From Bacteroidota bacterium (lineage in GTDB: Bacteria; Bacteroidota; Bacteroidia; Chitinophagales; JADIYW01): a stretch of 50,363 nt of DNA. The notes beneath the pieces are model-generated. The model did no database searches, had not been told where the DNA came from, and worked only from the letters and a program-made list of their open reading frames with translations. The number at the start of each line of letters is the position of its first letter. The stretch's first letter is position 1. Below are positions 17,465-26,875 of the stretch, piece by piece. Made by a program: the position numbers and the translations under genes. The stretch is taken from positions 1-50,363 of the forward strand of contig JAQBNI010000051.1 in the NCBI GenBank assembly GCA_028288625.1. Direction: 5' to 3'.

Positions 17465-18448
17465 ATGAGTTACGCTAAATCTTTTTTTGGAAAAGAAATA
17501 CCTGATATCACGTATGCTGATGTAGAAAATTTCTTTAAGGAAGAGAAAGAGGAATCGGATAAAATAGAATTCAAATCTTATTACACCGTTTTTGAAAGTC
17601 ACTTTAACCAAAAGGAAAGCGGTGTGATCCGTGCCATTTGCGGTATGCTGAATTCGGAAGGCGGCTTGATCATTTGGGGCGCACCCCGCGGTATCCCCGT
17701 TAACGGGAAAAAAGAAAAAATTTACAAAGGTGAATTATCTCCGCTGGATGCACTGATTGAAAAAGATGCATTTGTTAGCAAGGTGACTAACCTCATCACG
17801 CCATCACCAAAGGGCATTATTTTTCAGAGGCTCGAAAACAACAACCGGTATGTTTATTTGATAGAAGTTCAGCAAAGTCAATACTCGCCACATCAATACA
17901 ACAATACTTATTACATGCGGATTGACGGTCAAACACGCCCCGCGCCGCATCACTATATTGAAGCGCTTTTCCAAAGAATTTCTTATCCGAATTTAGAAGG
18001 CAAATTGATATTGGATAATGTGTCTGGTCAGCTGGATATTTTTACGAACCTGAGGATAAAGATCGATATTTCCAATAAATCCATGTTCCAGAATGAACAC
18101 GATATTTATATCAAACTTTTATCTGAAAACATCCAGATCGAATCAAATGATTTTAATATTCCTTTGCGGCAAAATAAAGATAAAACAGGAAGTGAACTGG
18201 AGATCAACAATGCCCGATCGACCTTATATCACCTGGCGCCGCTAAGAAATTATTTCAATATCAATATTGCCCAGGAAACAAAAAAAGGATCTCTTGTTTT
18301 GATATTCGGCGGTAAAACTTCACCATTAAAAATGTGTAAATATTTGTTGCGTAGTTCGGGAAACCCGAAAAAGTTTTCATTAACGCCGGAATTTGAAAAT
18401 GTATATTTATTTGAGCTGAACAGATTGAATAAAATTGCGGCAAGCTAA
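17465..18448 (+). CDS. AlbA_2 (Schlafen-type divergent AAA) domain protein
   Basis: The 327-residue protein starts at ATG 17465; the frame is also open at a TTG one codon earlier. Residues ~25-165 form an AlbA_2 domain, recognised by DKIEFKSYYTVF, the conserved AICGMLNSEGGLIIWGAPRG and YVYLIEVQQSQYSPHQYNNTYYMRIDGQT. This domain is found in Schlafen-like proteins and in some transcriptional regulators, where it is thought to bind nucleic acid or nucleotide. The C-terminal half shows no recognised domain and no wHTH is apparent. The end overlaps the convergent trpC by 42 bases. Function unknown. Confidence 0.85.
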   Translation: MSYAKSFFGKEIPDITYADVENFFKEEKEESDKIEFKSYYTVFESHFNQKESGVIRAICGMLNSEGGLIIWGAPRGIPVNGKKEKIYKGELSPLDALIEKDAFVSKVTNLITPSPKGIIFQRLENNNRYVYLIEVQQSQYSPHQYNNTYYMRIDGQTRPAPHHYIEALFQRISYPNLEGKLILDNVSGQLDIFTNLRIKIDISNKSMFQNEHDIYIKLLSENIQIESNDFNIPLRQNKDKTGSELEINNARSTLYHLAPLRNYFNINIAQETKKGSLVLIFGGKTSPLKMCKYLLRSSGNPKKFSLTPEFENVYLFELNRLNKIAAS

Positions 18449-19195
18449 CCCGGGATTGTCTGTCTTCATAAAATTTTCACCGATCAAAAAACCATGAAAT
18501 CCATTTTGTTTTAACAGTTTCATGGTTGCTAAATCAGAAATTCCACTTTCCGCCACTTTAACCACATCGTTTCCCAGTTTTTCCGCCATGCGGATGGATT
18601 GCTCTATATCTACCTCAAAAGTTTTTAAATTCCTGTTGTTGATGCCCACCATATCCACCATGTCGTTTACGTGATCGAGTTCACTTTCATCATGAAGCTC
18701 CAATAAGACTTCCAGTCCCAGGTTTTTTGCAAGCCCGGTAAATTGTTTTACCTGTTGCGGCGTGAGGATCGCTGCGATGAGCAAAACAACATCAGCGCCC
18801 CAGCTTTTCGCTTCGATGAACTGGTACTCATCGATCATAAAATCTTTTCTAAGTAATGGAATATTAACTTTATTTCTTACAGCGATCAAATCATTGCTGC
18901 TTCCATTGAAAAATTCTTCTTCGGTGAGAATGGAACTTCCCGCAACACCTGCATTTTCATATTGTTTCACAACTTCTACAACATCCGCCTTCGCATTTAA
19001 TATTCCTTTGCTGGGTGAACGGCGCTTAAATTCAGCAATGATACCTGAAGAATTATCTGCTAATAAATTTTCTGTTAGAGAAATCGTATTACGGCAGAAA
19101 AAAACAGTTGCTTCTAATTCTTCAATAGAAATGTTTCGCTTAGCTTCCTCTATCGCATTCTTTTTATGAACTATTATTTTATCAAGAATTGTCAT
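18407..19195 (-). CDS. trpC: Indole-3-glycerol-phosphate synthase
   Basis: The 262-residue TIM-barrel enzyme converts CdRP to indole-3-glycerol phosphate, the fourth dedicated step to tryptophan. Motifs are IIAEFKRRSPSKG, LTEEEFFNGS, PLLRKDFMIDEYQ, VGINNRNLKTFEVD and VAESGISD. The ATG at 19195 overlaps the trpD stop by ATGA, so this start is preferred over the in-frame ATG at 19225. It is the last gene of the trp block in the window; trpF, trpB and trpA are absent. Its last 14 codons overlap the convergent AlbA_2 gene. The encoded ending (NPGLACRNFIQSVQLK) fits the family, so the overlap appears real. Confidence 0.95.
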   Translation of the reverse strand: MTILDKIIVHKKNAIEEAKRNISIEELEATVFFCRNTISLTENLLADNSSGIIAEFKRRSPSKGILNAKADVVEVVKQYENAGVAGSSILTEEEFFNGSSNDLIAVRNKVNIPLLRKDFMIDEYQFIEAKSWGADVVLLIAAILTPQQVKQFTGLAKNLGLEVLLELHDESELDHVNDMVDMVGINNRNLKTFEVDIEQSIRMAEKLGNDVVKVAESGISDLATMKLLKQNGFHGFLIGENFMKTDNPGLACRNFIQSVQLK

Positions 19196-20184
19196 CGACA
19201 AAATTCTTTTAATTTTTGAAAACATTGCAGCGCTTTGCCGCTGTATAAACTTTCTTTTGCTTTCGCGATCCCTGTTTCTACATCACTTTTATTATATACG
19301 GCAATTGCCATTCCTGCATTTGCGATCACCACATTATTTTGTGCACCGGTACCACATCCCTGTAATACATTTAAGAATATAGCCGCATTGCTTTCGATGG
19401 ATTCTCCACCGTAAATCTCTTCCGGCGTGATCTTATCAAATCCAAATGCATGAGGCGTGATGAGATAATCCCTCTTTTTGATATGCACTCTTGTATCATC
19501 CGTTAAAGAGACCTCATCGTAACCATCGAGCGAATGAATGATGGCGAAATTAATATCTGTTTTCTTTAGCACCTGCTTATATAACTTTGCAGTTACTTCA
19601 TTATGCACACCGATGACCTGTGTCTTCGGTTCACAAGGATTGACTAACGGACCCAGTAAATTGAAAATTGTTTTTACCTGAAGCTGACGTCGTACATCCG
19701 CTACATTTTTCATTGCCGGATGAAACAGCGGCGCATGCAGGAAAGTAATATTTGCTTCTTCCAACTGTTGAGTTAATTTCCCTTCCAGGCAGGCAAAATT
19801 TATCCCAAAATGTTCTAATACATTTGACGAGCCTGATATGGAAGAAACACCATAGTTGCCATGTTTAGTTACCTTGATATTTGCGCCGGCACAAACAAAA
19901 CATGCGAGCGTTGAAATATTAAATGTATCCTTGCCATCGCCGCCTGTGCCAACAATATCTAAGGTATTTTTGTATTTAAACTTTACAGGCATTGCAAGCT
20001 CCAGCATAGCATTTCTGAAGCCCGACAATTCTTCTGCAGAAGGCATTCGTAAATTATACACGGAAAGAAAAGCCGCAACCTGCGCATCATTTTGGTTGCC
20101 GTTTGCAATGTCAGTCATTGCGATCTCTGCTTCCTGTTGTGACAAAGTATTTCCCGCAAATAAATATTGCAATAATGTTTTCAT
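19192..20184 (-). CDS. trpD: Anthranilate phosphoribosyltransferase
   Basis: The 330-residue enzyme attaches phosphoribosyl from PRPP to anthranilate. The PRPP-binding loop DIVGTGGDGKDTFNIST, KHGNYGVSSISGSSNVLE and IFNLLGPLVNPCEP are standard TrpD motifs. The gene begins 8 bases after the trpG stop and ends in an ATGA overlap with trpC, so the block is translated as an operon. TrpD is separate from TrpG here, not fused. Confidence 0.96.
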   Translation of the reverse strand: MKTLLQYLFAGNTLSQQEAEIAMTDIANGNQNDAQVAAFLSVYNLRMPSAEELSGFRNAMLELAMPVKFKYKNTLDIVGTGGDGKDTFNISTLACFVCAGANIKVTKHGNYGVSSISGSSNVLEHFGINFACLEGKLTQQLEEANITFLHAPLFHPAMKNVADVRRQLQVKTIFNLLGPLVNPCEPKTQVIGVHNEVTAKLYKQVLKKTDINFAIIHSLDGYDEVSLTDDTRVHIKKRDYLITPHAFGFDKITPEEIYGGESIESNAAIFLNVLQGCGTGAQNNVVIANAGMAIAVYNKSDVETGIAKAKESLYSGKALQCFQKLKEFCR

Positions 20185-20192
20185 AAATTACT

Positions 20193-20756
20193 TTAGCATT
20201 TAAACAGCCAGTTTTCAATGATCTTCATACCGGTTGGTGTCATTACACTTTCGGGATGGAATTGAACACCGCGCACATTATATTTTTCATGCTTTATTGC
20301 CATCACTAAATCATCATCATCCACTGCAGTAACGATGAGCGGACTTTTTATATTTTTAATTGCCCATGAATGATATCGTCCGCTGATAAATTCTTTTTCC
20401 ATTCCTTCAAATAAAATATCTTCCCCGATCACTTTAGTATTTTTTGCTTTACCATGTATAACATTCCCCACGTTGTATAACTCTGCTCCGAATACTTCGC
20501 CAATTGCCTGGTGACCCAAACAAACACCGAGAATTGATTTTTGAGCGGCATATTTTTCTATCAACGGAATTAAAATACCTGCTTCATTGGGCACTCCGGG
20601 ACCCGGTGATAAAATGATCTTATCGAATTTATTTACATCTTCGAGAGAAATTTTGTCATTTCGGTGCACTTCACATTTTACGTTGAATGCTTCTATATAA
20701 TGCACAAGATTATAAGTGAATGAATCGTAGTTGTCTAGTACTAATATAGATCTCAT
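20193..20756 (-). CDS. trpG: Anthranilate synthase glutamine amidotransferase subunit
   Basis: The 187-residue class I amidotransferase supplies ammonia from glutamine to TrpE. The catalytic Cys sits in ILGVCLGHQAIGE, the His/Glu pair in GVQFHPESVMTP, and the start MRSILVLDNYDSFTYNLVHY is typical. A single protein may also serve 4-amino-4-deoxychorismate synthesis (PabA). The operon position behind trpE, with a 4-base ATGA overlap, supports the trp role. Confidence 0.95.
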   Translation of the reverse strand: MRSILVLDNYDSFTYNLVHYIEAFNVKCEVHRNDKISLEDVNKFDKIILSPGPGVPNEAGILIPLIEKYAAQKSILGVCLGHQAIGEVFGAELYNVGNVIHGKAKNTKVIGEDILFEGMEKEFISGRYHSWAIKNIKSPLIVTAVDDDDLVMAIKHEKYNVRGVQFHPESVMTPTGMKIIENWLFKC

Positions 20757-22153
20757 AGTGTATTTGCTAATTCAATTGCTTTATTCAAAGCTGCTAATTT
20801 ATTTTCTACTTCCTGCAATTCATTTTCGGGAACAGAATCTGCTACCACGCCTGCACCCGCCTGGAAAGTAAGCGTATTGTCCTTGCTTAAAAAACTCCTG
20901 ATCATGATCGCATGGTTGAAATCGCCATTAAAATCGATATGACCGATGGCGCCTCCATAAGATCCGCGGCTGCAATTTTCATATTCATCTATCAATTTCA
21001 TGGCTTTATATTTTGGTGCGCCGCTTAATGTACCTGCAGGAAATGTATCGCCAATGATCTTTATTTTATCGGACGCTTCATCTATCTGTGCAGTTACTCT
21101 TGAAACCAAATGAATCACATGAGAGAAATACTGCACCTCCCGGAAAACTTCCACTGTTGTATTTTTTCCTCCACGTGACAGATCATTTCTTGCGAGATCT
21201 ACCAGCATAATATGTTCGGCATTCTCTTTCGGATCATCGGAAAGCTTTTGTGCTAACAGCGCATCTTTAATATCATCTCCCGTCCTTTTAAAAGTACCCG
21301 CGATCGGATGAATGGTAACCTTGTTATTCTTAATAATTAATTGCGATTCGGGAGAAGAGCCCATCAACCTGAAATCACCAAAATCAAAATAAAAACAATA
21401 AGGTGAAGGATTTATACTGCGCAATGCACGGTATACATTGAAATCATCTCCGCGATATTTTTGTTCAAAACGGCGCGATAAAACGATCTGGAAAACATCG
21501 CCGCGGTAGCAGGAATTCTTTCCTTTATTGACCATCTCGAGATACTGCTCGTCCGAAAGATTTGAAGTTTTTTCATTTTCCGCAGCAAAATTATCGAGAT
21601 GAAGCGGCTTGTATTTTATGATACTTTCAATCTCATCCAAAGTTGTTGCATCTGCTTCAAAGCCCTCCACATCATTTTTTATAATGTACAATTCATGATT
21701 AAAATGATTGAAGGCAATGATGTACCGGTAAACAAAATATTGCGCAAGAGGTATTTCTGGTTTCTGGTGATGAAATTGTATGTCTTCAAAATACTGCACA
21801 ATATCGTACGTCATGTAACCGAAGAGACCGTTAGAAATAATGTTGAATTTTAAATGTTGAATGTTGAATGAAGAGATAAATGAATTTATGAGATCGGTTA
21901 GCTTGTTTTCTTTCAACGATTTTTCTTCTTCTTTTTGATCGGGATACGTTGCTGTAAAATGCTCATCCTCTACTTTAAATCCGGCAATAGGTTGAAAGCA
22001 TATGTAAGAGAAATTGTGTTCATCCCCATGATAATCGGAGCTTTCGAGCAATATTGCATTTTTAAATCTCGAACGCAGGCGCAGATAAATACTTACCGGC
22101 GTAAGCATATCCGAAATAATTTTTTTGTGAGTGGTTTTAAATTTGTAATTCAT
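20753..22153 (-). CDS. trpE: Anthranilate synthase component I
   Basis: The 466-residue protein makes anthranilate from chorismate with TrpG. Chorismate-binding motifs include GDVFQIVLSRRFEQ, HPIAGTFKRTGDD, HIMLVDLARNDLSRGG, DTFPAGTLSGAPKYKAM and QAGAGVVADSVPENE. The N-terminal LLES (~35-38) and the later NPSPYCFY contribute to the tryptophan feedback site of the family. Residues ~94-105 (SSFNIQHLKFNI) are encoded by a five-unit heptamer array that seems to have replaced ordinary sequence in a linker. A leader peptide with three Trp codons and an attenuator lie upstream, predicting control by charged tRNA-Trp. Confidence 0.96.
   Translation of the reverse strand: MNYKFKTTHKKIISDMLTPVSIYLRLRSRFKNAILLESSDYHGDEHNFSYICFQPIAGFKVEDEHFTATYPDQKEEEKSLKENKLTDLINSFISSFNIQHLKFNIISNGLFGYMTYDIVQYFEDIQFHHQKPEIPLAQYFVYRYIIAFNHFNHELYIIKNDVEGFEADATTLDEIESIIKYKPLHLDNFAAENEKTSNLSDEQYLEMVNKGKNSCYRGDVFQIVLSRRFEQKYRGDDFNVYRALRSINPSPYCFYFDFGDFRLMGSSPESQLIIKNNKVTIHPIAGTFKRTGDDIKDALLAQKLSDDPKENAEHIMLVDLARNDLSRGGKNTTVEVFREVQYFSHVIHLVSRVTAQIDEASDKIKIIGDTFPAGTLSGAPKYKAMKLIDEYENCSRGSYGGAIGHIDFNGDFNHAIMIRSFLSKDNTLTFQAGAGVVADSVPENELQEVENKLAALNKAIELANTL
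21839..21873. repeat. Five-unit heptamer array inside trpE
   Basis: Five consecutive 7-base units start with AAT (consensus AATGTTG on the plus strand) over 35 bases. On the coding strand they read as ATTCAAC-like units and are translated in three phases as SSFNIQHLKFNI. This is one of several period-7 arrays in the window. Confidence 0.8.
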
Positions 22154-22198: not shown

Positions 22199-22228
22199 AA
22201 AGAAAAAGCCCGCGTTTTACTGCGAGCT
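22199..22228 (-). terminator. trp attenuator terminator hairpin
   Basis: On the minus strand AGCTCGC pairs with GCGGGCT (one G-U pair) across the loop AGTAAAAC, followed at once by the U-tract TTTTCTTT. It lies 45 bases before trpE and about 36 bases after the leader peptide stop. GCGTGTT at 22262-22256, just after that stop, can pair with the 5' arm AGCTCGC (six of seven positions) as a competing antiterminator. Confidence 0.85.
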
Positions 22229-22263
22229 AATATACTATTTTGGAAATAGAATCTGAACACGCC

Positions 22264-22311
22264 TTAACGCCGCTTAAAATTCCACCACCAAATATTGTTT
22301 GTCATTTTCAT
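22264..22311 (-). CDS. trpL: trp operon leader peptide with three tandem Trp codons
   Basis: The 15-codon ORF encodes MKMTNNIWWWNFKRR, followed by TAA; an internal ATG at 22305 is an alternative start. Three consecutive UGG codons sit at positions 8-10. It is placed between hisB and trpE, and is followed by an antiterminator candidate and a terminator hairpin. The design is that of transcription attenuation: ribosome stalling at Trp codons when charged tRNA-Trp is scarce would free the antiterminator and allow trpEGDC transcription. When tryptophan is plentiful, the ribosome reaches the stop codon and covers the antiterminator segment. It is too short for ordinary gene calling. Confidence 0.88.
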   Translation of the reverse strand: MKMTNNIWWWNFKRR

Positions 22312-22349
22312 TGTGTAATAATATCAATTAATAATGAATTTAGCAATAG

Positions 22350-23474
22350 CTACAATTTCCCCTTGGTTGTCGGCAGCTCAGTACCATCACGCTTTACCGC
22401 CATTTTAATTGACTTTGCCACGGCTTTAAAAATAGCTTCAATTTTATGGTGCTCGTTAGAACCTTCCGCTTTTATATTCAGGTTGCATTTTGCAGCATCC
22501 GTAAATGATTTCCAGAAATGATAAAACATTTCCGTCGGCATCTCTCCTATTTTTTCTCTTTTGAAATCCGCTTTCCATACCAACCAGCTTCTTCCTGAAA
22601 AGTCTATAGCAACCTGGGCTAACACATCGTCCATCGGCAACAAAAATCCGTAACGCTGAATGCCTCTTTTTTCTCCGAGTGCCCGGTGAAATGCATCACC
22701 CAAAGCAATGGCAGTATCTTCTATGGTGTGATGCTCATCAATCTGCAGATCGCCTTTCACTTTGATTTCAATATCACAGCCTGAATGTTTTGCGAGCTGT
22801 TCGAGCATATGATCAAAAAAACCCAATCCTGTTTTAATGGACGATCTTCCTGTGCCATCTAAATTCAGCGACACATTTATTTTTGTTTCGTTGGTGTCTC
22901 GCTGTACGATTGCTTTCCTGGGGGATGTAGTCAAAAATTCGTAAATATCTTTCCAGTTATCTGTTTGTAAGGCGATCGTTTCCTTAAGCTCATTCTGTTT
23001 CAATTTTTTATCATCGGTTTTATCCTTACTTCTGCCGATCAATATTCCTTTTGCGCCTAAATTTTTTGCCATCTGAATATCTGTGAGCCTGTCGCCGATC
23101 ACAAACGAATGCTGCAGATCACATTTTCCATTCAGATAAGCCGTCAACATGCCGGTATTGGGTTTTCGGTTTGGGTGATTGTCTTTTGCAAATGACCTGT
23201 CAATAAAAACATCCTTAAAAACTATGCCTTCATTCTTTAATACTTCCAGCATAAAATTTTGTGCGGGCCAGAATTTCTTTTCTGAAAATGATTTAGTGCC
23301 TAATCCGTCCTGGTTGGTGACCATCACCAATATATAATCGGTTTCACGAACGATCTTCGACAGGTAATAAATTACATTCGGTATAAATCTCAATTTCTCA
23401 AAGCTATCGATCTGGAAATCTTCCGGCTCATGGATCAATGTTCCGTCACGGTCAATGAATAATACTTTGTACAT
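22350..23474 (-). CDS. hisB: Bifunctional histidinol-phosphatase / imidazoleglycerol-phosphate dehydratase
   Basis: The 374-residue fusion catalyses two steps of histidine synthesis. The N-terminal HAD phosphatase (residues ~1-165) has [13 protein letters not shown] and [13 protein letters not shown] plus a zinc-loop-like C-x-H region and [16 protein letters not shown]. The C-terminal dehydratase (~175-374) has [31 protein letters not shown] and [15 protein letters not shown], with the metal-binding His residues. It follows hisC by 9 bases. The trp leader region begins 38 bases downstream, and no hisB terminator is seen before it, so some his transcripts could read into the trp attenuator. 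Confidence 0.95.
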
Positions 23475-26726: not shown

Positions 26727-26794
26727 TTAAACAAAATTAGTTTGTATTACTGAAATAAATAGAAAGATAAAATAAAATTAGATTAAATAATATG

Positions 26795-26831
26795 CACTCC
26801 ATCAGGAGTGATGAAAAAGGTGGGATGGCAT
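26795..26831 (-). promoter_or_regulatory. Possible his leader peptide and hairpin (weak)
   Basis: On the minus strand the short ORF MPSHLFHHS (ATG at 26831, TGA at 26804-26802; a GTG at 26849 would lengthen it in frame) has three His codons in nine and four in fifteen. Its end overlaps a 6-bp hairpin (CACTCC, loop TGAT, GGAGTG, 26810-26795). No U-tract follows and no antiterminator is obvious, so an attenuator is not proven. The hairpin could also be a dispersed palindromic repeat. Confidence 0.3.
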
Positions 26832-26875
26832 ATGTTGCAGTGTGTTCACTGGTGTAAATATAAAAATTTAAACTG

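Follow-up and report, generated by a model that had tools for sequence, protein, structure and literature searches.

Do the tryptophan genes of this Bacteroidota bacterium sense tryptophan through a ribosome that translates a short leader peptide? The question is raised by the minus strand of the window, by which we mean the whole 50,363-nt stretch of DNA that was analysed. A sequence-only reading had placed an ORF with three consecutive Trp codons, an antiterminator arm, a terminator and a U-tract between hisB and trpE, and its coordinates proved exact to the base. It had likened the order of these parts (Trp codons, stop, antiterminator arm, terminator) to that of the enteric attenuators, and both the sequence and the relatives described below confirm this order.

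The leader between hisB and trpE

The features of the locus, in the direction of transcription, are:

22350..23474, minus strand: hisB, the upstream gene (gene family confirmed); its stop codon is 38 nt 5' of the leader ATG
22316..22323, minus strand: degenerate -7 box TATTATTA, 4 nt 5' of the leader ATG, with ATTG 20 nt upstream; weak, matching at 4/6 positions
22264..22311, minus strand: leader peptide ORF of 15 codons, encoding MKMTNNIWWWNFKRR and a stop; ATG at 22311-22309, TAA at 22266-22264
22282..22290, minus strand: three consecutive Trp codons TGGTGGTGG, the presumed sensor
22256..22263, minus strand: antiterminator 5' arm GGCGTGTT, starting ∼ 28 nt past the first Trp codon and including GCGTGTT (22262-22256)
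22239..22249, minus strand: CTATTTCCAAA, which in the ribosome-free fold pairs with TTTGGTGGTGG (Trp codons)
22207..22228, minus strand: intrinsic terminator hairpin AGCTCGC-8 nt-GCGGGCT, arms 22228-22222 and 22213-22207, conserved in the genus
22199..22206, minus strand: U-tract TTTTCTTT, ending 45 nt 5' of the trpE ATG (22153)
20753..22153, minus strand: trpE, the first regulated gene (gene family confirmed)
20193..20756, minus strand: trpG (gene family confirmed)
19192..20184, minus strand: trpD (gene family confirmed)
18407..19225, minus strand: trpC (gene family confirmed)

The leader ORF reads ATG AAA ATG ACA AAC AAT ATT TGG TGG TGG AAT TTT AAG CGG CGT TAA and is followed, 5' to 3', by GGCGTGTT, CTATTTCCAAA, AGCTCGC-8 nt-GCGGGCT and TTTTCTTT; the terminator stem has 7 bp, one of them G.U. 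Upstream of the leader lies the his cluster, hisG, hisD, hisC and, at its end, hisB; downstream lie trpE, trpG, trpD and trpC. The gene hisB also lies 5' of the leader in members of the window's genus (L003-L007). trpA and its neighbours are on a separate contig (C116), which carries none of the genome's WWW sites, so that a second WWW leader at the trpA region was not found.

The 121-nt leader folds more stably than its shuffles (z = -2.65; 2/200 shuffles equally good). Since TGGTGGTGG occurs at 30 sites across the 3.7-Mb genome and is thus not rare, the Trp codons by themselves are weak proof. What exceeds chance in the window is the placement of TGGTGGTGG, the order of the parts and their conservation. 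The pairing of GCGTGTT with AGCTCGC, pointed out in the sequence-only reading, is not significant alone (34/200 shuffles match it) but is backed by the relatives and by the longer hairpin that it closes. In the genus alignment the WWW codons and the GGCGT of the antiterminator arm are invariant, and CYATKTCCAA is conserved at the site of CTATTTCCAAA. The stems are nearly constant at this level: a search of the genus alignment gave no compensatory changes and a single G-C to G-U change. Because covariation within the genus was therefore uninformative, we shifted the test to lineages with unrelated stems.

Trp-codon leaders and their terminators in relatives

The case had been made to depend on Trp-codon leaders in related genomes, and these were abundant. 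A short ORF in which Trp codons cluster precedes trpE in 82/87 non-duplicate loci, drawn from the window's family and a wider set of genome contigs after removal of the duplicate genome records L029, L030, L031 and L034. One further locus, L008, holds the end of trpE only and gave a spurious match; it was excluded (the raw count with it is 83/88). Of the five loci that lack a leader, one offers just 23 nt 5' of trpE and another is masked by N. In a second, even draw of 158 genomes from the phylum, tallied by hand and with two matches ∼ 550 nt upstream excluded for want of a fitting terminator, a leader was found in 32/34 members of the class that have a complete trpE and in 51/94 genomes from the rest of the phylum. 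The leader is thus not universal in Bacteroidota: in this draw the families f11, f14, f16, f17, f25, f27, f29 and f30 are without this type, and they probably control trp by other means. Random 500-nt windows of the same loci give a background rate of 6.5%, a figure that includes true leaders and WWW sites.

Could the hairpin simply end transcription of the his genes, with the Trp-rich ORF there by accident? Its place 3' of hisB, at the end of the his cluster, fits this explanation, as does the lack of a perfect promoter before the window's leader. However, the same leader and terminator precede trpE at loci where no hisB was found upstream, and no Trp-rich ORF was present before trpE paralogues (0/15) or in hisG upstream regions (0/9). 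The comparison of antiterminators that follows weighs against it as well, and we regard a plain his terminator as very improbable.

Close to the end of the leader lies a segment complementary to the loop and upper 5' arm of that leader's own terminator, and these segments are wholly different between lineages. The arm:terminator pairs are TGTGAACAGC:GCTGTTCACA in Cyclobacteriaceae, GTCGTGA:TCACGAC in flavobacteria, AGATGGACG:TGTTCATCT in Dyadobacter and GCGTGACTG:CAGTCACGC in L016; an independent sample adds GGACCGGTGGGCG:CGCCCACCGGTCT, GCGGTGGGCC:GGCCCACCGC and GAACAGTGGG:CCCACTGTTC. The arms were sought beyond the range of -6 to +26 around the stop, as those of Dyadobacter and others sit within the coding end. 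Against dinucleotide shuffles, an antiterminator was supported at p ≤ 0.05 in 34/86 leaders of the first set, many of which are close relatives (Dyadobacter), so that the counts are not independent; in the independent set it was supported at p ≤ 0.05 against shuffles in 46/80. When terminators were swapped among 27 dissimilar leaders, the helix score fell from 16.4 to 13.2 (sd 0.56), and the true value was reached in 0/10,000 permutations. The compensatory stem changes that the sequence-only reading had looked to are therefore absent inside the genus, but unrelated lineages each match their own terminator. A his terminator with an accidental ORF does not account for antiterminator and terminator being matched across lineages.

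Two observations stand apart from these counts. Four loci (L032, L033, L086 and L087) carry a tandem pair of complete Trp leader-terminator units 5' of trpE, the two differing in peptide and in antiterminator pair. L054, whose record bears the title Bifidobacterium breve MAG, has a trpE and a leader of the Bacteroidota type and is probably mislabelled or a contaminated bin.

Folding states, spacing and the proposed switch

Three folds were predicted for the window. With a ribosome at the Trp codons a hairpin takes up the terminator 5' arm, whereas a ribosome at the stop codon allows the terminator to form. The ribosome-free RNA also forms the terminator, its Trp codons being paired with CTATTTCCAAA in a 1:2-type hairpin. 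The predicted terminator probability is 0.30, 0.98 and 0.98 respectively. Over 86 leaders, and on transcripts ending before the terminator 3' arm, the predicted upstream pairing of the terminator 5' arm and loop averaged 0.67 for a ribosome at Trp, 0.12 for one at the stop and 0.40 for shuffled sequences. For most relatives, even the stalled state favours the complete terminator at equilibrium, so the switch must depend on which structure folds first, as the classical model holds.

These results lead us to conclude, with high confidence, that the leader is a ribosome-mediated transcription attenuator of trpEGDC. A Trp-codon ORF lies 5' of the trp genes and a terminator precedes the first of them; an exclusive antiterminator freed by stalling at Trp emerges from computation, though weakly in the window alone. 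The observed basis is the parts themselves, their conservation and complementarity, a fixed spacing and the folds predicted for the three states, from which we infer translation of the leader, coupling of ribosome and polymerase, and a response to tryptophan. In the proposed mechanism, polymerase would transcribe the leader while a ribosome translates the 15-residue peptide. Were charged tRNA-Trp scarce, the ribosome would pause at UGGUGGUGG with its footprint stopping short of GGCGUGUU; the exposed GGCGUGUU would then pair with the terminator 5' arm, no terminator would form and transcription would read into trpE. Were tryptophan abundant, the ribosome would reach the stop codon and mask GGCGUGUU, the AGCUCGC/GCGGGCU hairpin would form and transcription would end at the U-tract. 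In an untranslated leader the Trp codons would pair with CUAUUUCCAAA, locking the antiterminator arm and giving termination by default.

The leader might instead act chiefly on translation of trpE, by sequestration of its start or by translational coupling, rather than on transcription. Leader ORFs near a gene can help its translation (PMC4833913). In the window a terminator and U-tract intervene between leader and trpE, and the trpE start, 45 nt past the U-tract here, lies at a variable distance in relatives. We judge a chiefly translational role to be extremely improbable.

A switch set by a ribosome at the Trp codons should have its antiterminator arm at a fixed distance from those codons, and this is what was observed. 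For 24 distinct arms, the distance from the first Trp codon to the arm is 25 nt (SD 2.6), whereas relative to the stop codon the arms lie between -25 and +7 (SD 9.1; slope -1.07, r -0.96); the search window tracks both Trp codons and stop, and part of this correlation is therefore built in. The independent sample gave a median Trp-to-arm distance of 24 nt (SD 4.9), compared with 32 (SD 11.5) in shuffles of the same sequences. In L271 and L215 the stop lies 18-21 nt past the first Trp codon and in L211, of the same genus as L271, 42 nt past it; despite these differences the arm starts 23, 22 and 24 nt after the first Trp codon in L271, L215 and L211 respectively. The fixed quantity is thus the distance from Trp codon to arm (∼ 25 nt), and the position of the stop codon is free. 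This rule agrees with the geometry of the ribosome footprint. It also predicts ribosome-polymerase coupling in Bacteroidota, where translation starts largely without Shine-Dalgarno sequences.

The spacing bears on a further explanation, in which a protein or a tRNA reads the leader directly, in place of a translating ribosome. Other bacteria do regulate their trp genes by TRAP-like, T-box or repressor means. Here, however, the Trp codons are conserved in frame and the arm spacing is tied to them. Moreover, no TrpR or TRAP family protein was found in the genome, and neither a T-box nor any other Rfam family matched within the window at gathering score. Direct sensing therefore seems to us exceedingly improbable.

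Promoters, known leaders and a His-rich leader

A perfect TAnnTTTG box (TATATTTG) ends 4-5 nt 5' of the leader ATG in L003-L007, which belong to the window's genus, and in L016. In the window, the interval from hisB to the leader yielded only the degenerate TATTATTA. In flavobacteria the TAnnTTTG box spans -12 to -5 (PMC9723704), and the promoter position would accordingly put the start of the leader mRNA at or beside the ATG. Near-leaderless mRNAs are rare in the phylum, leaderless mRNAs making up 5.5% in F. psychrophilum (PMC9723704) and 5' UTRs under 10 nt 3.7% in B. thetaiotaomicron (PMC7366714). With the hisB stop 38 nt upstream and a degenerate box, transcription running on from the his genes may contribute in the window.

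Whether attenuation of this kind had been described for the lineage was left open by the sequence-only reading; for the phylum it has, in silico. The motif RF01692 Bacteroid-trp, 'Bacteroidete tryptophan peptide leader RNA', is among those of Weinberg et al. 2010 (PMC2864571). A 2019 paper likened it to the E. coli trp leader and placed it 5' of trp in F. psychrophilum (PMC6414381), and a 2021 transcriptome of that species gave strong clues of leader-peptide attenuation before amino-acid operons (PMC9723704). Like the window's leader, RF01692 is a Trp-codon leader 5' of trp genes in the same phylum; its consensus covers a Trp-codon hairpin and breaks off within the terminator 5' arm, and the Rfam structure differs in being without the antiterminator and the whole terminator. 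The window fits its description, with Trp codons in a long hairpin, a terminator, trp genes and a Bacteroidetes host. At the gathering score (49 bits) RF01692 matches the relatives L035, L038, L044, L097 and L144 but neither the window nor any genome of its family (0/13), and it does not match 13 leaders from outside the class; it misses 40/45 of the leader loci scanned and could be rebuilt.

Of the sub-threshold Rfam matches of the window, the highest is to RF00513 Trp_leader, the proteobacterial trp leader (E. coli trpL; 20.9 bits, E 0.036; gathering score 41), which is also the best such match of relative L006 (26.0 bits). The two share Trp codons, 1:2, 2:3 and 3:4 structures, a U-tract, and their order and logic. 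They differ in the peptide and stems of the window, in the antiterminator partner, which in many relatives is the terminator loop and upper arm, and in the -7 box, which in relatives lies 4-5 nt before the leader ATG and leaves almost no 5' UTR. The trpL of Sinorhizobium meliloti is a leaderless trp attenuator (PMC7298713). It is similar in that the leader mRNA would start at or near the ATG and in attenuating without known repression, but it belongs to another phylum and has another sequence, and the near-leaderless start proposed here follows from promoter position, the window's own box being degenerate.

The window's leader is therefore a real, conserved and divergent member of an already described kind of trp leader. 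To this kind the sequences appear to add an antiterminator that recurs across the phylum, a spacing rule and a wider range. We see about an even chance that Bacteroid-trp is one old attenuator extending beyond the reach of the Rfam model, in Bacteroidia and families of other classes, with a ∼ 25-nt Trp-to-arm rule, an arm that seizes the terminator loop and upper 5' arm, a free stop codon and a nearly leaderless mRNA, and set in the window inside a his-trp gene string.

A His-rich leader was also seen 5' of hisG (window 26795-26849, minus strand), reading MPSHLFHHS and a stop, or VNTLQHMPSHLFHHS and a stop from a GTG; relatives L169-L173 encode the His-rich peptides MMFSLQTIAHFRHHSK, MLFSAIHHIAHLHHSK and MRIIFFLASHFTHHSK, each followed by a stop. 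A conserved hairpin, CACTCC-4 or 5 nt-GGAGTG, has the leader's final His-Ser codons as its 5' arm; its loop contains the stop codon, and U-rich sequence follows. The his genes could thus be attenuated by a stalled ribosome sitting directly on the terminator arm, with no separate antiterminator. Downstream of it a TAnnTTTG-type box, TAATTTTG (window 26732-26739, minus strand), lies ∼ 5 nt before the hisG ATG (26726) and recurs in L169-L173, suggesting a separate near-leaderless promoter of the his genes.
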